Assembly (NCBI GenBank): GCA_016794225.1
Contig: JAEUKQ010000004.1
Coordinates: 22,177 to 70,287 of the forward strand
Length of the DNA: 48,111 bases
Direction of reading: 5' to 3'
Origin: Alphaproteobacteria bacterium
GTDB taxonomy: Bacteria > Pseudomonadota > Alphaproteobacteria > JAEUKQ01
Positions 33,265 through 39,774 of this stretch are shown in pieces (position 1 is the stretch's first letter; the number at the start of each line of letters is the position of its first letter). The notes under the pieces are model-generated. The model was not told where the DNA came from, did no database searches, and worked only from the letters and a program-made list of their open reading frames with translations. Both the position numbers and the translations under genes were made by a program.

Positions 33265-34308
33265 CTAGAAACCATAAGAGATATGATGTAGTAAGTAGTA
33301 AAAAGTAATAAAAGCACCCAGCACTAAAAAATGTTCACCCACTAAAGCGCCCGATTCTTCGTAAGATGGCCATTTGGGAATTCGGAAAAGTCGGTTTAAC
33401 TTGGATGGACCGGTAATAAACAGAACACTAAGTGACACAATAATTAACGAATGCCCAACCAGGTCAATTTTGCCAAAGTCGATAACGGCAAGTAAGAATA
33501 CGACAATAAGTGGTGCTGTGGCTATTCTTGCAATAAAACCACTGTCAACCAGCATTAAAAATGGCAGGGTGAATTCGGTAAAAGCAGCCAGCAGCATAAA
33601 AGTTTCTTGATCAAGGCCCAAAAGAATGTGCGAATGCTTGGTCAGAACACCAGTGTACCAATGGGCGTATACAAATTTTTCAATACTTGCCCACATCAGG
33701 GTAAATACAACTGTTCCATGCAGAATCATTAATTTGGTTTCTTCATATTTTTTTAGTTTTTCTAAACTGCTGAAAATAAGAAAGCCAGCAACCCCAAGAA
33801 AAATAGGATAGTTAAAAGCGTGAAAGACCCCATAAATGGTCATGGCATAAAAATACAAAAATATAATGCCAAAACCAGCAATGAAACTTGTTTTTCGACT
33901 TATCAAGGCTATGGCCATTAATAATTGTACCCAAGAAATCCACTGTTGGTCCGTTTGCATTTCAGGGGTTAGAATAGTTCCGCCAATCAACCACAACGAT
34001 ATCAAGAAAAATCCCGCAGAAACCCGAAAACCATCAAAAATATATGGCTTGGCTTGCAGCAAAAAACCAACCATACGCGATGATTCAAAGCGGTCACCAT
34101 AACGGCGATCTAGAATAAAGGCTGCATAAATAGGAATAATTAATACCGATGCAAACAAAAGCCAGTTTATGTCAAAAGCTTCGTGTAATGGCGGTATCTT
34201 TTCACCAAAATCGACTGTTGAAAACCACTGAACATGCGCAAAAACATTATTGCTTGTTAGTAATAGGGTCTGGAATAAAATAGCCAGGAAGAAAAGTTTT
34301 CTTGACAT
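33265..34308 (-). CDS. DoxX-like polytopic membrane protein with mature N-terminus AHVQWF
   Basis: A 347-residue membrane protein. The ATG at 34308 follows a perfect GAGGAGG at 7 bases; the 11-codon extension to 34341 is rejected. A signal peptide (residues 1-~24) ends VFA before HVQWF. About eight to ten hydrophobic spans follow. I recall proteobacterial membrane proteins of this size beginning AHVKWF and sharing DoxX/DoxD-like features; their function is unknown to me. The ASIEKFVYAHWYTGVL stretch resembles the DoxX-type conserved region. It stands alone with its own ribosome site, between the G-rich DUF4139 segment and hslO. Confidence 0.7.
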   Translation of the reverse strand: MSRKLFFLAILFQTLLLTSNNVFAHVQWFSTVDFGEKIPPLHEAFDINWLLFASVLIIPIYAAFILDRRYGDRFESSRMVGFLLQAKPYIFDGFRVSAGFFLISLWLIGGTILTPEMQTDQQWISWVQLLMAIALISRKTSFIAGFGIIFLYFYAMTIYGVFHAFNYPIFLGVAGFLIFSSLEKLKKYEETKLMILHGTVVFTLMWASIEKFVYAHWYTGVLTKHSHILLGLDQETFMLLAAFTEFTLPFLMLVDSGFIARIATAPLIVVFLLAVIDFGKIDLVGHSLIIVSLSVLFITGPSKLNRLFRIPKWPSYEESGALVGEHFLVLGAFITFYYLLHHISYGF

Positions 34309-34410
34309 GATCAACCTCCTCGATAATCGGCAATCAAACATTGCTAATTATGGGAATTTTGTCATAAGCTTATTAACAAAAGGTGAAAATCCTGGCTACG
34401 TATATTATAA

Positions 34411-34436: not shown

Positions 34437-35348
34437 CTATTGTTTTGATAAATCTTGTTCTTTGAAAGAATATTGCTGATTACAGATTTCACAATGAACA
34501 TGAATCATACCGTTAATCTGCATAAGCTTTATCTCGTCTTCAGGAAAAGATAAAAGCATGTGCTGAACTTTTTGACTTGAGCAGCGGCATTGTGCAATCA
34601 AAGGTCGTTGTGCTTCAAGATGCAGTGATTGATCGGTAAATAATAGCTTCAGTAATTGTTCCGAAGGTAATTGCTGATTAAGAATTTCATTTCTCTTCAA
34701 GGTTGATAAATATAACATTGCTTCATGCCAGCGCTCGGTGGCGTTGGCCTGTTGTACCGTATTTGTCGACGCATTGGGGGATAAGGGAATTTGTTGCAAC
34801 AACACAAGACGCCCATACCACGAATTCTTTATGCGTTCAACCGCCAAAAATATCGATTGCTGCAGCTGTTCGGACTGGCGAAAATATTCTTCAATACACG
34901 CGCTAAGTGTTAGGCCGATTAATTCAACAATACCCTGATATCTTTTGCCATCTTCGCCTTGATCAACCGTAAAAGCTAAATAACCAGACCCAAAAATTTG
35001 CGGAATACTTAAAAACTGCTGGTCTGGTGTTTCTAAAATTGAATTGGGGGTGAATTGAGCATATCCCCGCATATGACCTTCCGCAGTGCAATCAATCAAC
35101 AAAAGCTTGACCGGCCCAGACCCTTTAATCTGTAGTGTAAAAACGCCGCGATATTTTAAACTACTGGATAGGGCAGCAGTTATTAGAAGCCCCTCGGCTA
35201 ATAGTTGCGCTACTGGGTGTGGATATTGGTGACGCGATAAAATTTCATCAAGCGTTTGCTTGAGTTCAATGACCCGGCCGCGCACGTCGCTTTTTTCTAA
35301 ATAGAAAGGCAAAATGCCATCACTATTTTTGGTTGTGAAAATAGCCAT
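34437..35348 (-). CDS. hslO: Redox-regulated chaperone Hsp33
   Basis: Cytosolic holdase switched on by oxidation, 303 residues. The C-terminal zinc switch is intact: CRC, 29 residues, then CEIC, fitting CxC-X27-32-CxxC. The N-terminal domain shows the family features ALSSSLKYRG and the GSGPVKLLLIDCTAEG block. It follows argD by 3 bases, so the two are co-transcribed. In many alphaproteobacteria argF lies between them; here it does not. Confidence 0.95.
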   Translation of the reverse strand: MAIFTTKNSDGILPFYLEKSDVRGRVIELKQTLDEILSRHQYPHPVAQLLAEGLLITAALSSSLKYRGVFTLQIKGSGPVKLLLIDCTAEGHMRGYAQFTPNSILETPDQQFLSIPQIFGSGYLAFTVDQGEDGKRYQGIVELIGLTLSACIEEYFRQSEQLQQSIFLAVERIKNSWYGRLVLLQQIPLSPNASTNTVQQANATERWHEAMLYLSTLKRNEILNQQLPSEQLLKLLFTDQSLHLEAQRPLIAQCRCSSQKVQHMLLSFPEDEIKLMQINGMIHVHCEICNQQYSFKEQDLSKQ

Positions 35349-35351
35349 GGC

Positions 35352-36548
35352 TTATTTCGGCTTTAAGGCAAGTTGCTGGCAGGTTAGTGCGATAATTTTA
35401 ATCGCTTCATCAACATGTTGTTCTGTAATAATAAGGGGGGGTAGAAAACGAACAACATTATCACCAGCAATTACCGTTAATAAGCCATTCGCGCGTAATT
35501 GATCAACAAAATCGGTGTTTGCAACATGGCATTTTAGGCCAATCATCAAACCTTTCCCGCGAACGCTTGCCAGTATTTTGGGAAAGCGAGCCAGCAATTT
35601 TTCCAACTGTTGATGTATATAATCGCCCATTTTCACCACTTGCGACAAAAAGCCTGGCCCCAATAAAATATCCAAGGCAGCGTTACCAACTGCCATTGCA
35701 AGTGGATTGCCCCCAAAAGTAGTTCCATGACTGCCAGCTTGCATAACAGCACCAACTTTGGCTGTGGTTAGGCAAGCGCCAATCGGAAATCCACCACCAA
35801 GACCCTTGGCGACTGCAACAATATCGGGTTTTATGCCAGCCCATTCATGGGCAAATAATTTTCCGGTTCGCCCCATTCCGCATTGAATTTCATCTAAAAA
35901 CAGTAATAAACCAAATTCGTCAGCAATTTTTCGAACTTCACGCAAATAATCAGCCGACAGGCTGCGCATGCCGCCTTCACCCTGAACTGGTTCGAATAAA
36001 ATACCTGCTGTTTCTGGCCGAATTGCTGCGCGTAGTTCGTTTAAATTACCAAATGCTATCTGGTCGAAACCATCAACAACCGGGTCATAACCTTTTGAAT
36101 ATTTCTCTTGTCCGGTTGCGGCTAAGGCAGCTAACGTTCGTCCATGAAAGGCGCCCTCGAAGGTTATTAAACGGTATCGTTGTGGCTGGCCAATCTCATC
36201 GTAATATTTGCGCAAAATTTTAAAACCACATTCGATGGCTTCAACCCCGGAATTACTGAAAAAAACAGACTCGGCAAACGAGTTCTCTACCAAACGTGTC
36301 GCTAATCTGGTTTGATCAGGAATCTCGAATAAATTTGAACAATGCCATAGTAACTCGGCCTGCTTAAAAAGTGCCTGAAGTAGGTGGGGATGATTATGAC
36401 CAAAAGCCGTAACGGCAATACCACTAACAAAGTCAAGGTACTTTTTCCCATCATTACCAAACAGATAGGCACCATCACCCTTTATAAAAGATAAAGCAGT
36501 GCGTTTATAAGTTGGTAACAGTACAGGAAATTTTGGATCTATAGTCAT
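35352..36548 (-). CDS. argD: Acetylornithine aminotransferase (ArgD)
   Basis: PLP-dependent class III aminotransferase, 398 residues, converting N-acetylglutamate semialdehyde to N-acetylornithine in arginine synthesis, and possibly acting in lysine synthesis as well. The PLP lysine lies in VAVAKGLGGGFPIGA. FFSNSGVEAIE, EGAFHGRT, EPVQGEGG and LFLDEIQCGMGRTG are intact, and the C-terminal RFLPPLIIT block is present. The ABC-2 permease ends 13 bases upstream, so permease-argD-hslO may be one transcript. Confidence 0.93.
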   Translation of the reverse strand: MTIDPKFPVLLPTYKRTALSFIKGDGAYLFGNDGKKYLDFVSGIAVTAFGHNHPHLLQALFKQAELLWHCSNLFEIPDQTRLATRLVENSFAESVFFSNSGVEAIECGFKILRKYYDEIGQPQRYRLITFEGAFHGRTLAALAATGQEKYSKGYDPVVDGFDQIAFGNLNELRAAIRPETAGILFEPVQGEGGMRSLSADYLREVRKIADEFGLLLFLDEIQCGMGRTGKLFAHEWAGIKPDIVAVAKGLGGGFPIGACLTTAKVGAVMQAGSHGTTFGGNPLAMAVGNAALDILLGPGFLSQVVKMGDYIHQQLEKLLARFPKILASVRGKGLMIGLKCHVANTDFVDQLRANGLLTVIAGDNVVRFLPPLIITEQHVDEAIKIIALTCQQLALKPK

Positions 36549-36561
36549 GATGTTATCGATC

Positions 36562-37377
36562 TTAGCCTTTTAAACGGTAACCGCTGTGAAACAGGCGGTA
36601 AACAATGAGAGTTAGGGCAACGCTGGTGCCACACAAAACAACAATCCCCAGCCACAATGAGCCGTCTGCATGGTTGGTAAAGCCATACCTGAAACCATCG
36701 ATCATGTAAAAGAACGGATTAGCATGGGCAACTTGCTGCCAAAAGGTAGGAAGCTGGTGAATCGAGTAAAATGTACCCGACAAGAAAGCCAACGGTGTCA
36801 CAATAAAATTGGTTAAGGCCGCTAAATGATCGTATTTCTGGGCAATCAAACCGCTGATAATCCCTAACAAAGATAAAATCAAACTGGCAACAGTACCATA
36901 AAACAAAATATAAATTGCATGATGGATACTAAGCGGGGTTAGCAACCACAAAAATAAACCAACCATCAGACCAACCAAAAGCCCCCGAGTAATACCACCA
37001 GCCGCCAGGGCAATGGTTAGTTCGGCGGGGCGTAGGGGTGGCATTAAAATATCCACCACATTACCCTGCATTTTCGATAAGATTAACGATGACGATGTGT
37101 TGGCAAAAGCGTTTTGCACCATAGACATCATCATAAGCCCAGGGGGTAAAAATACCGCATAGCTAATATCGGCAACAACTACAGTCTGATGACCGGTTGC
37201 AAGTGCAAAAATTGCATAAAACAACAAAGCACTAACGACTGGGGCAAAAAGCGTTTGGGTTGAAACGTTTAAAAAACGCCGAACCTCTTTCAAATATAAT
37301 GCCCAAAGACCAAGCCAATTAAGCAAACCAAAACGCCGACTAGTTGGCTGATAAAAAGTAATTTTTGATTTGGACAT
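36562..37377 (-). CDS. ABC-2 type transporter permease without a neighbouring ATPase
   Basis: A 271-residue inner-membrane permease of the ABC-2 family (YadH/ABC-2 membrane type), with six or more hydrophobic segments and the FLSGTFYSIHQLP-type signature. No ABC ATPase gene lies next to it, so it needs a partner encoded elsewhere or does something else. Its start codon region (ATG at 37377) was copied in the tandem duplication: residues KITFYQP occur again out of context at 38168-38188. It is followed 13 bases later by argD and preceded by a small membrane protein gene. Confidence 0.83.
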   Translation of the reverse strand: MSKSKITFYQPTSRRFGLLNWLGLWALYLKEVRRFLNVSTQTLFAPVVSALLFYAIFALATGHQTVVVADISYAVFLPPGLMMMSMVQNAFANTSSSLILSKMQGNVVDILMPPLRPAELTIALAAGGITRGLLVGLMVGLFLWLLTPLSIHHAIYILFYGTVASLILSLLGIISGLIAQKYDHLAALTNFIVTPLAFLSGTFYSIHQLPTFWQQVAHANPFFYMIDGFRYGFTNHADGSLWLGIVVLCGTSVALTLIVYRLFHSGYRLKG

Positions 37378-37398
37378 TGGAAAGTTCCTAACAAATGG

Positions 37399-38001
37399 TT
37401 AGTTGTTTTTTGCTTTATAACCCATAACCGGTATCATGATTAATCCGGCAGTAACAAGTAACATTAAGCCAACCCATATGCGCCAGGTAAAATAGAATGG
37501 GCTAATAATGTTCCAAATAATACTTAATGCGGGTAAAGCCATAATGCTGGCTGCAGCAAGAAATATGATCTGACAGATAACCATCAAAAAACGTCGGTTG
37601 CGAAAATGCAAAAGCACGCTGGCATAACTTAGATAAGCTGCAAGAATTGATAAGGTACATGTTATTTTAAACATCCCCTCGATGTTGCTAAAAACAACGC
37701 GTCTGTTGGCAATCCAGATTATATATAACCACATTGCCAGTCCTAGCACGGAACAAACAGTACCGGTATAACCCAGAATCTTCAGGTAAGAATCATTGAT
37801 CAACAAACCCGAAAATAGTAAACAGGCACTAAAAGCCATAACCGCAAAACTTGTCATAAGTATCTGCAGTTCAATACTATGCCTAAAATCACCAACCATG
37901 ATCATATATACCCCAATAGCTAGGCTTGCTGCAAAGGAAATAAGGAATGTTGTAAACAATAGCTTGCGGCTGGGAAGTGGTTGGGTAACAGCGTTGTTCA
38001 T
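37399..38001 (-). CDS. Small polytopic membrane protein, paralogue A
   Basis: A 200-residue membrane protein with about six hydrophobic spans; I do not recognise its family. The ATG at 38001 follows AAGGAG at 8 bases. A strong block near residue 75 (KILGYTGTVCSVLGLAMW) is repeated in paralogue B as KILGYGGFICSLLGLAMW. It lies 21 bases upstream of the ABC-2 permease gene and could be its partner. It carries its own near-consensus promoter. Confidence 0.75.
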   Translation of the reverse strand: MNNAVTQPLPSRKLLFTTFLISFAASLAIGVYMIMVGDFRHSIELQILMTSFAVMAFSACLLFSGLLINDSYLKILGYTGTVCSVLGLAMWLYIIWIANRRVVFSNIEGMFKITCTLSILAAYLSYASVLLHFRNRRFLMVICQIIFLAAASIMALPALSIIWNIISPFYFTWRIWVGLMLLVTAGLIMIPVMGYKAKNN

Positions 38002-38047
38002 CAAAATTGCTCCTTGCGGTAAACTGTTATTTTCTCAAAACAGCCCA

Positions 38048-38076
38048 AAGATAACAGGGGATTTTGATTGTGTCAA
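38048..38076 (-). promoter_or_regulatory. Promoter of membrane protein A
   Basis: On the reverse strand TTGACA (38076-38071), a 17-base spacer, TATCTT (38053-38048). The same promoter is preserved in copy B. Conservation of both boxes and the spacing after duplication supports function. Confidence 0.65.
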
Positions 38077-38125
38077 AGGCTCTAGGGCTCAGATATTTTA
38101 ATTATTTAACTCTTTTTTATATATG

Positions 38126-38200
38126 ACGACCAAAGACCACACCAATCAATCAAGCTAAGTTAGCGGCTGGTTGATAAAAAGTAATTTTTTATCTGGGGAC
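38126..38200 (-). pseudogene. 5' fragment of the ABC-2 permease gene left by duplication
   Basis: The reverse strand still encodes KITFYQP at 38168-38188, identical to residues 4-10 of the permease. The surrounding bases align with 37301-37380, including the shared GATAAAAAGTAATTTTT. A deletion of about eight bases and a stop soon after end the frame. It lies between the two paralogous membrane protein genes and cannot encode a permease. Confidence 0.7.
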
Positions 38201-38228
38201 TGGGCATTAGAACATTCCCAGCGAATGA

Positions 38229-38891
38229 TTAATTGTTTATGGCTTGATTGGCTTTATAAGTCATACCATAGGCTATTGACCATGTTACAATGACCGCAAT
38301 TATCGCGAATATGCCCAAGTAACTCAGATCTATAATTTCTATAACTGAAAGTGGGCCAGTCAAGTTTTCTAGCTTGACCAAGTCTGCTAGAATACCTAAT
38401 GGCAATAAGCTAATAAAACCAGTAATCATAAGAATAGTTAGAGAGATAAAAAACATAAGTGTTGTATTACAGAAACGAGATAATAAGATGGTATAACAAC
38501 TGAAGTGAATCGCCAAACCGGACAGTGTAAGTGATCCAAAAAATAATAACGACCATATCTGATCTTCTAAGCGAAATGTGTTAGATAGCAAATCGATGCT
38601 AGCTTTGTTGAACCAGATAAAATATACCCACATCGCCAGTCCTAACAGGGAACAGATAAACCCACCATAACCCAGAATTTTAAGATGTGAATTTTTAATC
38701 AACAAGCATGAAAAGACCAAACAAGCGTGGTGAAGCAAGTTCAATGCAAAAGTTGCTTTCAAAATGCCTTCTCGAAGGATTGAAGGGTTAATAATCATCA
38801 GAACTAATAGATACAACGTAGTTATACCTGAGGAAATCAGAATAACAAACAACCATTTAACATTGAAGTGTCCAGTTTTATTGTCGGCCAT
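38229..38891 (-). CDS. Small polytopic membrane protein, paralogue B
   Basis: A 220-residue membrane protein with about six hydrophobic spans, clearly a duplicate of paralogue A. Both share a CL-F-LLI-S-LKILGY-G-CS-LGLAMW-Y-IW pattern across their second and third spans. The rest has diverged a good deal, and this copy is 20 residues longer. The frame is intact, so it is probably still made. No ribosome site as good as that of A is seen before the ATG at 38891. Function unknown. Confidence 0.72.
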   Translation of the reverse strand: MADNKTGHFNVKWLFVILISSGITTLYLLVLMIINPSILREGILKATFALNLLHHACLVFSCLLIKNSHLKILGYGGFICSLLGLAMWVYFIWFNKASIDLLSNTFRLEDQIWSLLFFGSLTLSGLAIHFSCYTILLSRFCNTTLMFFISLTILMITGFISLLPLGILADLVKLENLTGPLSVIEIIDLSYLGIFAIIAVIVTWSIAYGMTYKANQAINN

Positions 38892-38933
38892 AAAGCTGCT
38901 TTTCTTACATGTATTATTACCAATAACAGCCTA

Positions 38934-38962
38934 AAGATAACAGGGGATTTTGGTTGTGTCAA
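38934..38962 (-). promoter_or_regulatory. Promoter of membrane protein B
   Basis: On the reverse strand TTGACA (38962-38957), a 17-base spacer, TATCTT (38939-38934). Identical boxes and spacing to the promoter of copy A; only one base differs in the spacer. Confidence 0.65.
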
Positions 38963-39096
38963 AAAAGACGTTTGTCTATTGCAACTTACCCAAATATCTG
39001 AAAAACCCAATATAAAATTAAAAATATTGTGTCGTCTTTGCGAATTAGTTAAGGTTGTTGTACTACGGTTTATAAACCAGAATCAGGATTAATCCG

Positions 39097-39774
39097 ATGA
39101 CACAAGATAATCCCTCCAAGGATAATTGGGGAACAATCAAGCAGAAGCTTATTGAAACCAAACAACAATGGGCTAAGGAAAAGCGGCTGATAACAGGGAC
39201 ATCAGGTGATCGTAATCAAGAACGATTACCACCAGGCCAGCGGGAAGTTAAAAATTGGCCGGTGCTGGATTTAGGAATTCAACCCGACATAGCAGCGCAA
39301 GACTGGCGGTTGCAAGTAGATGGGCTTGTTAAAAAACCGGTTGCTTGGGACTGGAGCAAATTTCAACAACTACCATTGCGCGAATTTGTTTCCGACATTC
39401 ACTGTGTAACCGCTTGGTCACGGTTTGACAATCATTGGCAGGGTGTAGCAACCCGTGCAATTTTGGATATTGTTACACCCCATGACCAAGCAAGGTTTGT
39501 TATTTGTCACAGCTATGATGGCTATACAACAAATTTAACCCTAGCTGATTTTGCAGCAGAAGATGCCTTATTAGCAGTAGCATGGGAAGGTAAACCAATT
39601 AGTCGCGAGCATGGCGGGCCAGTTAGGGTTGTTGTGCCAAAACTTTATTTTTGGAAAAGTGCTAAATGGCTTAAGCGCATTGAAATTACAGATCAAGATA
39701 AACCAGGCTACTGGGAAGTACGTGGATATCATAACCGGGGTGATCCTTGGGAGGAAGAACGTTATGGCCGTTAA
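39097..39774 (+). CDS. Sulfite-oxidase-like molybdopterin protein, no signal peptide
   Basis: A 225-residue protein with the sulfite oxidase/YedY-type molybdopterin fold. The molybdenum ligand is Cys103 in DIHCVTAWSRFDNHW, and the EHGGPVRVVVPKLYFWKSAKW block that binds the cofactor region is intact. There is no Tat or Sec signal: the N-terminus is charged and helical, so the protein seems cytoplasmic. The electron acceptor and substrate are unknown. The stop overlaps the glutathione peroxidase start by 11 bases, so they are coupled. Confidence 0.85.
   Translation: MTQDNPSKDNWGTIKQKLIETKQQWAKEKRLITGTSGDRNQERLPPGQREVKNWPVLDLGIQPDIAAQDWRLQVDGLVKKPVAWDWSKFQQLPLREFVSDIHCVTAWSRFDNHWQGVATRAILDIVTPHDQARFVICHSYDGYTTNLTLADFAAEDALLAVAWEGKPISREHGGPVRVVVPKLYFWKSAKWLKRIEITDQDKPGYWEVRGYHNRGDPWEEERYGR

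Follow-up and report, generated by a model that had tools for sequence, protein, structure and literature searches.

Our results demonstrate that the window (the whole 48,111-nucleotide stretch of alphaproteobacterial DNA analyzed here) harbors a tandem duplication that is real and old, whose repeated unit runs from a promoter through a small membrane-protein gene into the 5' end of a permease gene. We consider it very likely that this cassette was duplicated long ago, with both membrane-protein genes probably in use, the middle of their products constrained and the outer parts drifting or diversifying. The features concerned are as follows.

39097..39774, plus strand: divergent molybdopterin oxidoreductase gene (Pfam Oxidored_molyb, 2.9e-42), which bounds the duplication upstream
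38934..38962, minus strand: putative promoter B, hexamers and spacing identical to those of promoter A
38229..38891, minus strand: membrane protein B, open reading frame of 220 aa plus stop, six predicted transmembrane (TM) segments
38108..38207, minus strand: dead permease 5' remnant of copy B, from the alignment with 37282-37377
38048..38076, minus strand: putative promoter A (TTGACA, 17 nt, TATCTT, with TG before the second hexamer), a consensus match and not functional proof
37399..38001, minus strand: membrane protein A, open reading frame of 200 aa plus stop, six predicted TM segments
37714..37827, minus strand: best-kept part of the membrane-protein gene, 75% identical to 38613-38726, including LKILGY and LGLAMW
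37282..37377, minus strand: duplicated permease stretch of copy A, codons 1 to ~32, from the alignment with 38108-38207
36562..37377, minus strand: complete ABC-2 type permease of 271 aa (Pfam ABC2_membrane), behind copy A and upstream of argD

Along the minus strand, the order is thus promoter B, protein B, the permease-start piece, promoter A, protein A, the permease, argD and hslO. Membrane protein A has an ATG at 38001 with AGGAG upstream (the open reading frame list starts it at a TTG at 38004, giving 201 aa), and the permease starts 21 nt past its end. The draft assembly of the source genome totals 1.62 Mb over 147 contigs, with a listed completeness of 100% and contamination of 1.65%.

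The two units, A (~37282-38101) and B (~38108-39002), are collinear, lie on the minus strand and share one internal order, a promoter followed by a small membrane-protein ORF and then the permease 5' end. The first-pass annotation had recognized this shared order and had placed the duplication at 37301-38963, an extent that proved slightly too small. Local alignment of the two units gave a score of 418.5; when one side was dinucleotide-shuffled 200 times, the maximum was 227 and the mean 179, ruling out chance similarity. With a stricter scheme, the score was 106 versus 35 in shuffles, and the alignment covered 37704-38077 with 38606-38963. The copies are adjacent and similarly oriented, they share flanking non-coding sequence, and a breakpoint falls inside a neighboring gene, as in a tandem duplication. 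A dispersed repeat was rejected, as the promoter block occurs at only two places in the draft genome, and the copies appear too different to result from misassembly of identical reads.

The similarity at the DNA level is not continuous. Collinear ungapped repeats were found over 114 nt (75% identity), 39 nt (95%) and 36 nt (83%). When 40-nt pieces were compared, 26 to 30 of the 40 positions matched in three places only, in pieces starting at 37300-37380, 37700-37780 and 38020, compared with at most 22 at control offsets; all other pieces had at most 20 matches. The earlier annotation had made the duplication depend on an unbroken dot-plot diagonal, and this expectation did not hold: the similarity forms three islands, at offsets of 823-830 (permease 5' piece), 899 (middle of the membrane-protein gene) and 886 (promoter). 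Between them the DNA is at background, but the islands remain collinear, and the gaps are spanned when the proteins are aligned.

It had also been proposed that the duplication truncated a permease gene. This part of the claim is incorrect: the permease is intact behind copy A, and decay is confined to the extra 5' piece in copy B. The permease matches ABC2_membrane (PF01061) with an E value of 1.3e-29 (103.7 bits versus a cut-off of 26.9) over profile positions 3-210 of 211; at E <= 0.001, the draft genome has no further match to this family. It aligns over its full length with eight relatives at 49 to 60% identity, the 60% being to a relative of the same order. The nearest NCBIfam entry is NF011648 (PRK15066), a YadH-like family; with 206.9 bits, below the curated cut-off of 225, the protein does not qualify as a member of that subfamily. 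The piece in copy B is broken, as had been noted, by frame-shifting length differences and by an in-frame TAA just before KITFYQP. The recurrence of KITFYQP was likewise borne out, as 38188-38168 reads this motif exactly in the permease frame, within the 36-nt repeat. Over 25 codons of the dead piece there are 16 differences, with 8, 4 and 4 at codon positions 1, 2 and 3 (counted in two hand-chosen ungapped blocks, without a control set). This distribution is not biased toward third positions, as expected upon loss of coding function.

The doubling of the membrane protein and the openness of both frames were confirmed. Proteins A and B are 41% identical over 122 aa (E = 3e-17) and 35% identical across the whole alignment, and their six predicted TM segments lie at roughly matching positions. 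In the middle of the gene, identity is 85% at second, 62% at first and 53% at third codon positions, pointing to selection on the protein middle. GC content by codon position is flat in both genes, a weak coding signature. We simulated frames of the lengths of A and B without selection (4,000 simulations each, substitutions only). Such frames stayed open in 0.5 to 4% of simulations at 0.2 to 0.3 substitutions per site in one copy, and in 17% (A) or 9% (B) at 0.1 substitutions per site. As unselected frames rarely stay open, both frames have probably been maintained.

Neither protein had a match in Pfam, NCBIfam or PDB sequences up to E = 1, and neither belongs to the ABC-2 permease family PF01061. 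A single PHROG match to protein B, at E = 0.4, was taken as chance. A fold model of protein A, built from two sequences, reached a pLDDT of 57.2 and a pTM of 0.44, and its 236 Foldseek matches to the PDB at E up to 10 included none at 0.001 or better; with so weak a model and no significant match, it allows no conclusion on the fold. Among the titles listed by a literature search, none was about this membrane-protein gene; such a listing says nothing on whether the gene has been published.

The membrane protein is an orphan in the collections covered by our searches. Of 41 genomes, only the source genome itself gave a match to protein A; the nearest genome compared, from the same order and another family, had no match. 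Searching with a profile built from A and B gave matches in 2 of 385 genomes of the class, the second match (E = 0.01, 40 positions, internal stop) being taken as chance, and in 1 of 398 genomes of the phylum, again the source genome. We also searched 84 loci with tblastn at E <= 0.01, comprising three from the source genome, one from a genome of the same order and 80 from named records. A or B was found in the three source-genome loci only, and the other 81 loci had no match. The absence of A and B rests on tblastn because the upstream ORFs of 21 relative loci had been chosen greedily by length, and several of these (e.g., L007, L011, L018 and L033) were on the wrong strand or overlong. A phage or plasmid origin was considered and rejected: protein A had no tblastn match at E <= 0.01 in plasmid and phage collections, and 39 pattern matches in viral contigs included no confirmed relative of the A/B alignment. 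As no homolog was found outside the source genome, we saw no single-copy ancestor and could not date the duplication. The source organism appears to represent an isolated alphaproteobacterial lineage, judging from the named records nearest its permease and the absence of genomes of the same genus or family among the relatives.

The promoter block is 95% identical over its 39 nt, and a search of the draft genome for a 27-base pattern of this block, with up to 3 mismatches allowed, found these two places only. This conservation probably reflects selection on promoter function. As each membrane-protein gene has an open frame and its own near-identical promoter, both are probably expressed.

We estimated distances between the copies with a pair-HMM summed over alignments. 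The promoter block gave 0.15 (0.1-0.3), the stretch between the stop codon of the membrane protein and the break in the permease 0.3 (0.25-0.4), and the central part of the membrane-protein gene 0.4 (0.35-0.6). The N-terminal third gave 1.0 (0.6-2.5) and the C-terminal half 0.8 (0.5-1.0), both with no DNA support; the 33-37 nt that separate the start codon from the promoter block gave 0.8 (0.3-2.5, no support). These distances and the 40-nt comparison uphold the earlier observation that the proteins have diverged more than the non-coding ends. The dead piece was free on one branch only, the other being the working permease, so a pair of freely drifting copies may have a neutral distance of up to ~0.6-0.8. 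We simulated neutral drift with in-frame indels at two indel ratios, with 200 runs of the N-terminal third and 100 of the C-terminal half. At 0.3 or 0.45, log-odds as low as those observed arose in 0/200 and 0/100 simulations, respectively, at both ratios. At 0.6 the frequencies were 0% or 4% (N-terminal) and 0% or 2% (C-terminal), and at 0.8 they were 4% or 28.5% and 1% or 44%, the larger value in each case belonging to the higher indel ratio. A plain duplication followed by uniform neutral drift at 0.3, the distance of the dead piece, thus fails to give background-level DNA in the outer parts, and this counts against our preferred explanation. The results, from a clock of ~120 nt, suggest, without being decisive, that the outer protein parts evolved at a rate near the top of the neutral range or above it. 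Values of dN/dS were 0.68/2.35 (NG86) and 0.81/1.40 (YN00) for the whole alignment and 0.30/1.38 (NG86) and 0.42/0.53 (YN00) for the core; they were left unused because the two methods disagree and the NG86 synonymous distance exceeds 2. The simulations give mild evidence that the outer parts of the proteins evolved at or above the neutral rate. The contrast between ends and proteins does not by itself demonstrate the functional divergence that had been suggested as a possibility, because the promoter is probably under selection, the dead piece had one free branch and the protein middle was kept.

We propose that the unit copied in tandem, ~0.85 kb long, comprised one six-TM gene with its sigma-70-type promoter and some 30 codons from the start of the permease behind it. 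The original permease remained intact behind copy A, and the extra start in copy B, lacking a gene body, decayed. Each membrane-protein gene retained its open frame and a near-identical promoter, B probably being transcribed as a short unit and A along with the permease and argD. The middle ~53 residues (TM2-TM3) would have stayed under selection, while the two ends diverged at a rate equal to or above the neutral one. From their position, A and B are perhaps paired small membrane proteins accessory to the adjoining permease. A bolder version, which we regard as improbable, is that they represent a lineage-specific six-TM family evolving fast, and possibly diversifying, outside a fixed TM2-TM3 core, with the copies specialized under the same promoter as partners or as variants for changing ligands.

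The mosaic of similar flanks and outer gene parts at DNA background could also arise if the second copy had come from a diverged strain by recombination in conserved flanks, A and B then being already different alleles; the flank distance of 0.3, compared with 1.0 and 0.8 in the outer parts, fits such an origin. However, third codon positions hold no excess of the differences in the permease piece, which thus most probably arose after the loss of coding function, not in a donor's working permease, and no relative carrying the membrane-protein gene was found. A donor with near-identical flanks and a hypervariable gene could still account for the pattern, and we rate this origin as unlikely. The low flank distance would likewise follow if the dead permease piece had been kept for another job, as an RNA element, spacer or short peptide, and had diverged less for that reason. 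We give this quite a small chance: the piece carries length changes, no Rfam family matched 36500-39300 at gathering score, and the predicted folding of the piece was no better than that of 200 shuffled sequences, 89 of which were at least as stable (z = -0.07). An RNA element was rejected on the last two grounds. The six predicted TM segments of A and B and their position beside the permease might suggest that they are degenerate copies of the ABC-2 permease itself, but the comparison of their profile with ABC-2 in hhalign gave a probability of only 0.1% (from a profile of two sequences), and the lack of any Pfam match up to E = 1 further argues against this idea, which we consider scarcely credible.

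Bacterial tandem gene duplications can carry a truncated piece of a neighboring gene. The present case has the same head-to-tail copies, the same junction inside a neighbor, the same diverging paralogs, and likewise an intact neighbor on one side with a dead piece on the other. It does not differ in principle, except that no described family was found for the duplicated gene. The event is thus of an ordinary kind and leaves the general picture unchanged, but it provides a small, clean example in which a tandem duplication has left a dead fragment beside two living paralogs as a local neutral clock.

The setting resembles the permease-argD-hslO cluster of other Alphaproteobacteria, in which the permease also lies upstream of argD. 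Among the 36 named loci listed (L005-L040), argD lies downstream of the permease in 20, and 11 of these 20 also have hslO within the retrieved sequence (some contigs being short). The window differs from that cluster in carrying A and B, which tblastn did not detect in the 81 loci from other genomes, in having a permease below the NF011648 cut-off, and in its gene spacing: argD (35352-36548) and hslO (34437-35348) are 3 nt apart here and ~1 kb apart in relatives such as L007, L009 and L011. The wider gap leaves enough room for argF, in the order argD, argF, hslO. The only ornithine carbamoyltransferase-type match in the source genome scores 124.7 bits versus a TIGR00658 cut-off of 280.85 and may belong to a different carbamoyltransferase, so a loss of argF from this genome is possible. 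Downstream of hslO lies a 358-aa ORF (33265-34341) that appears hydrophobic by reading, with no Pfam match up to E = 1 and a sole NCBIfam entry at E = 0.7. Another pair of neighboring paralogs is found in L005, L006, L016 and L017, in which a second permease, 32 to 34% identical to that of the window, lies directly behind the first.
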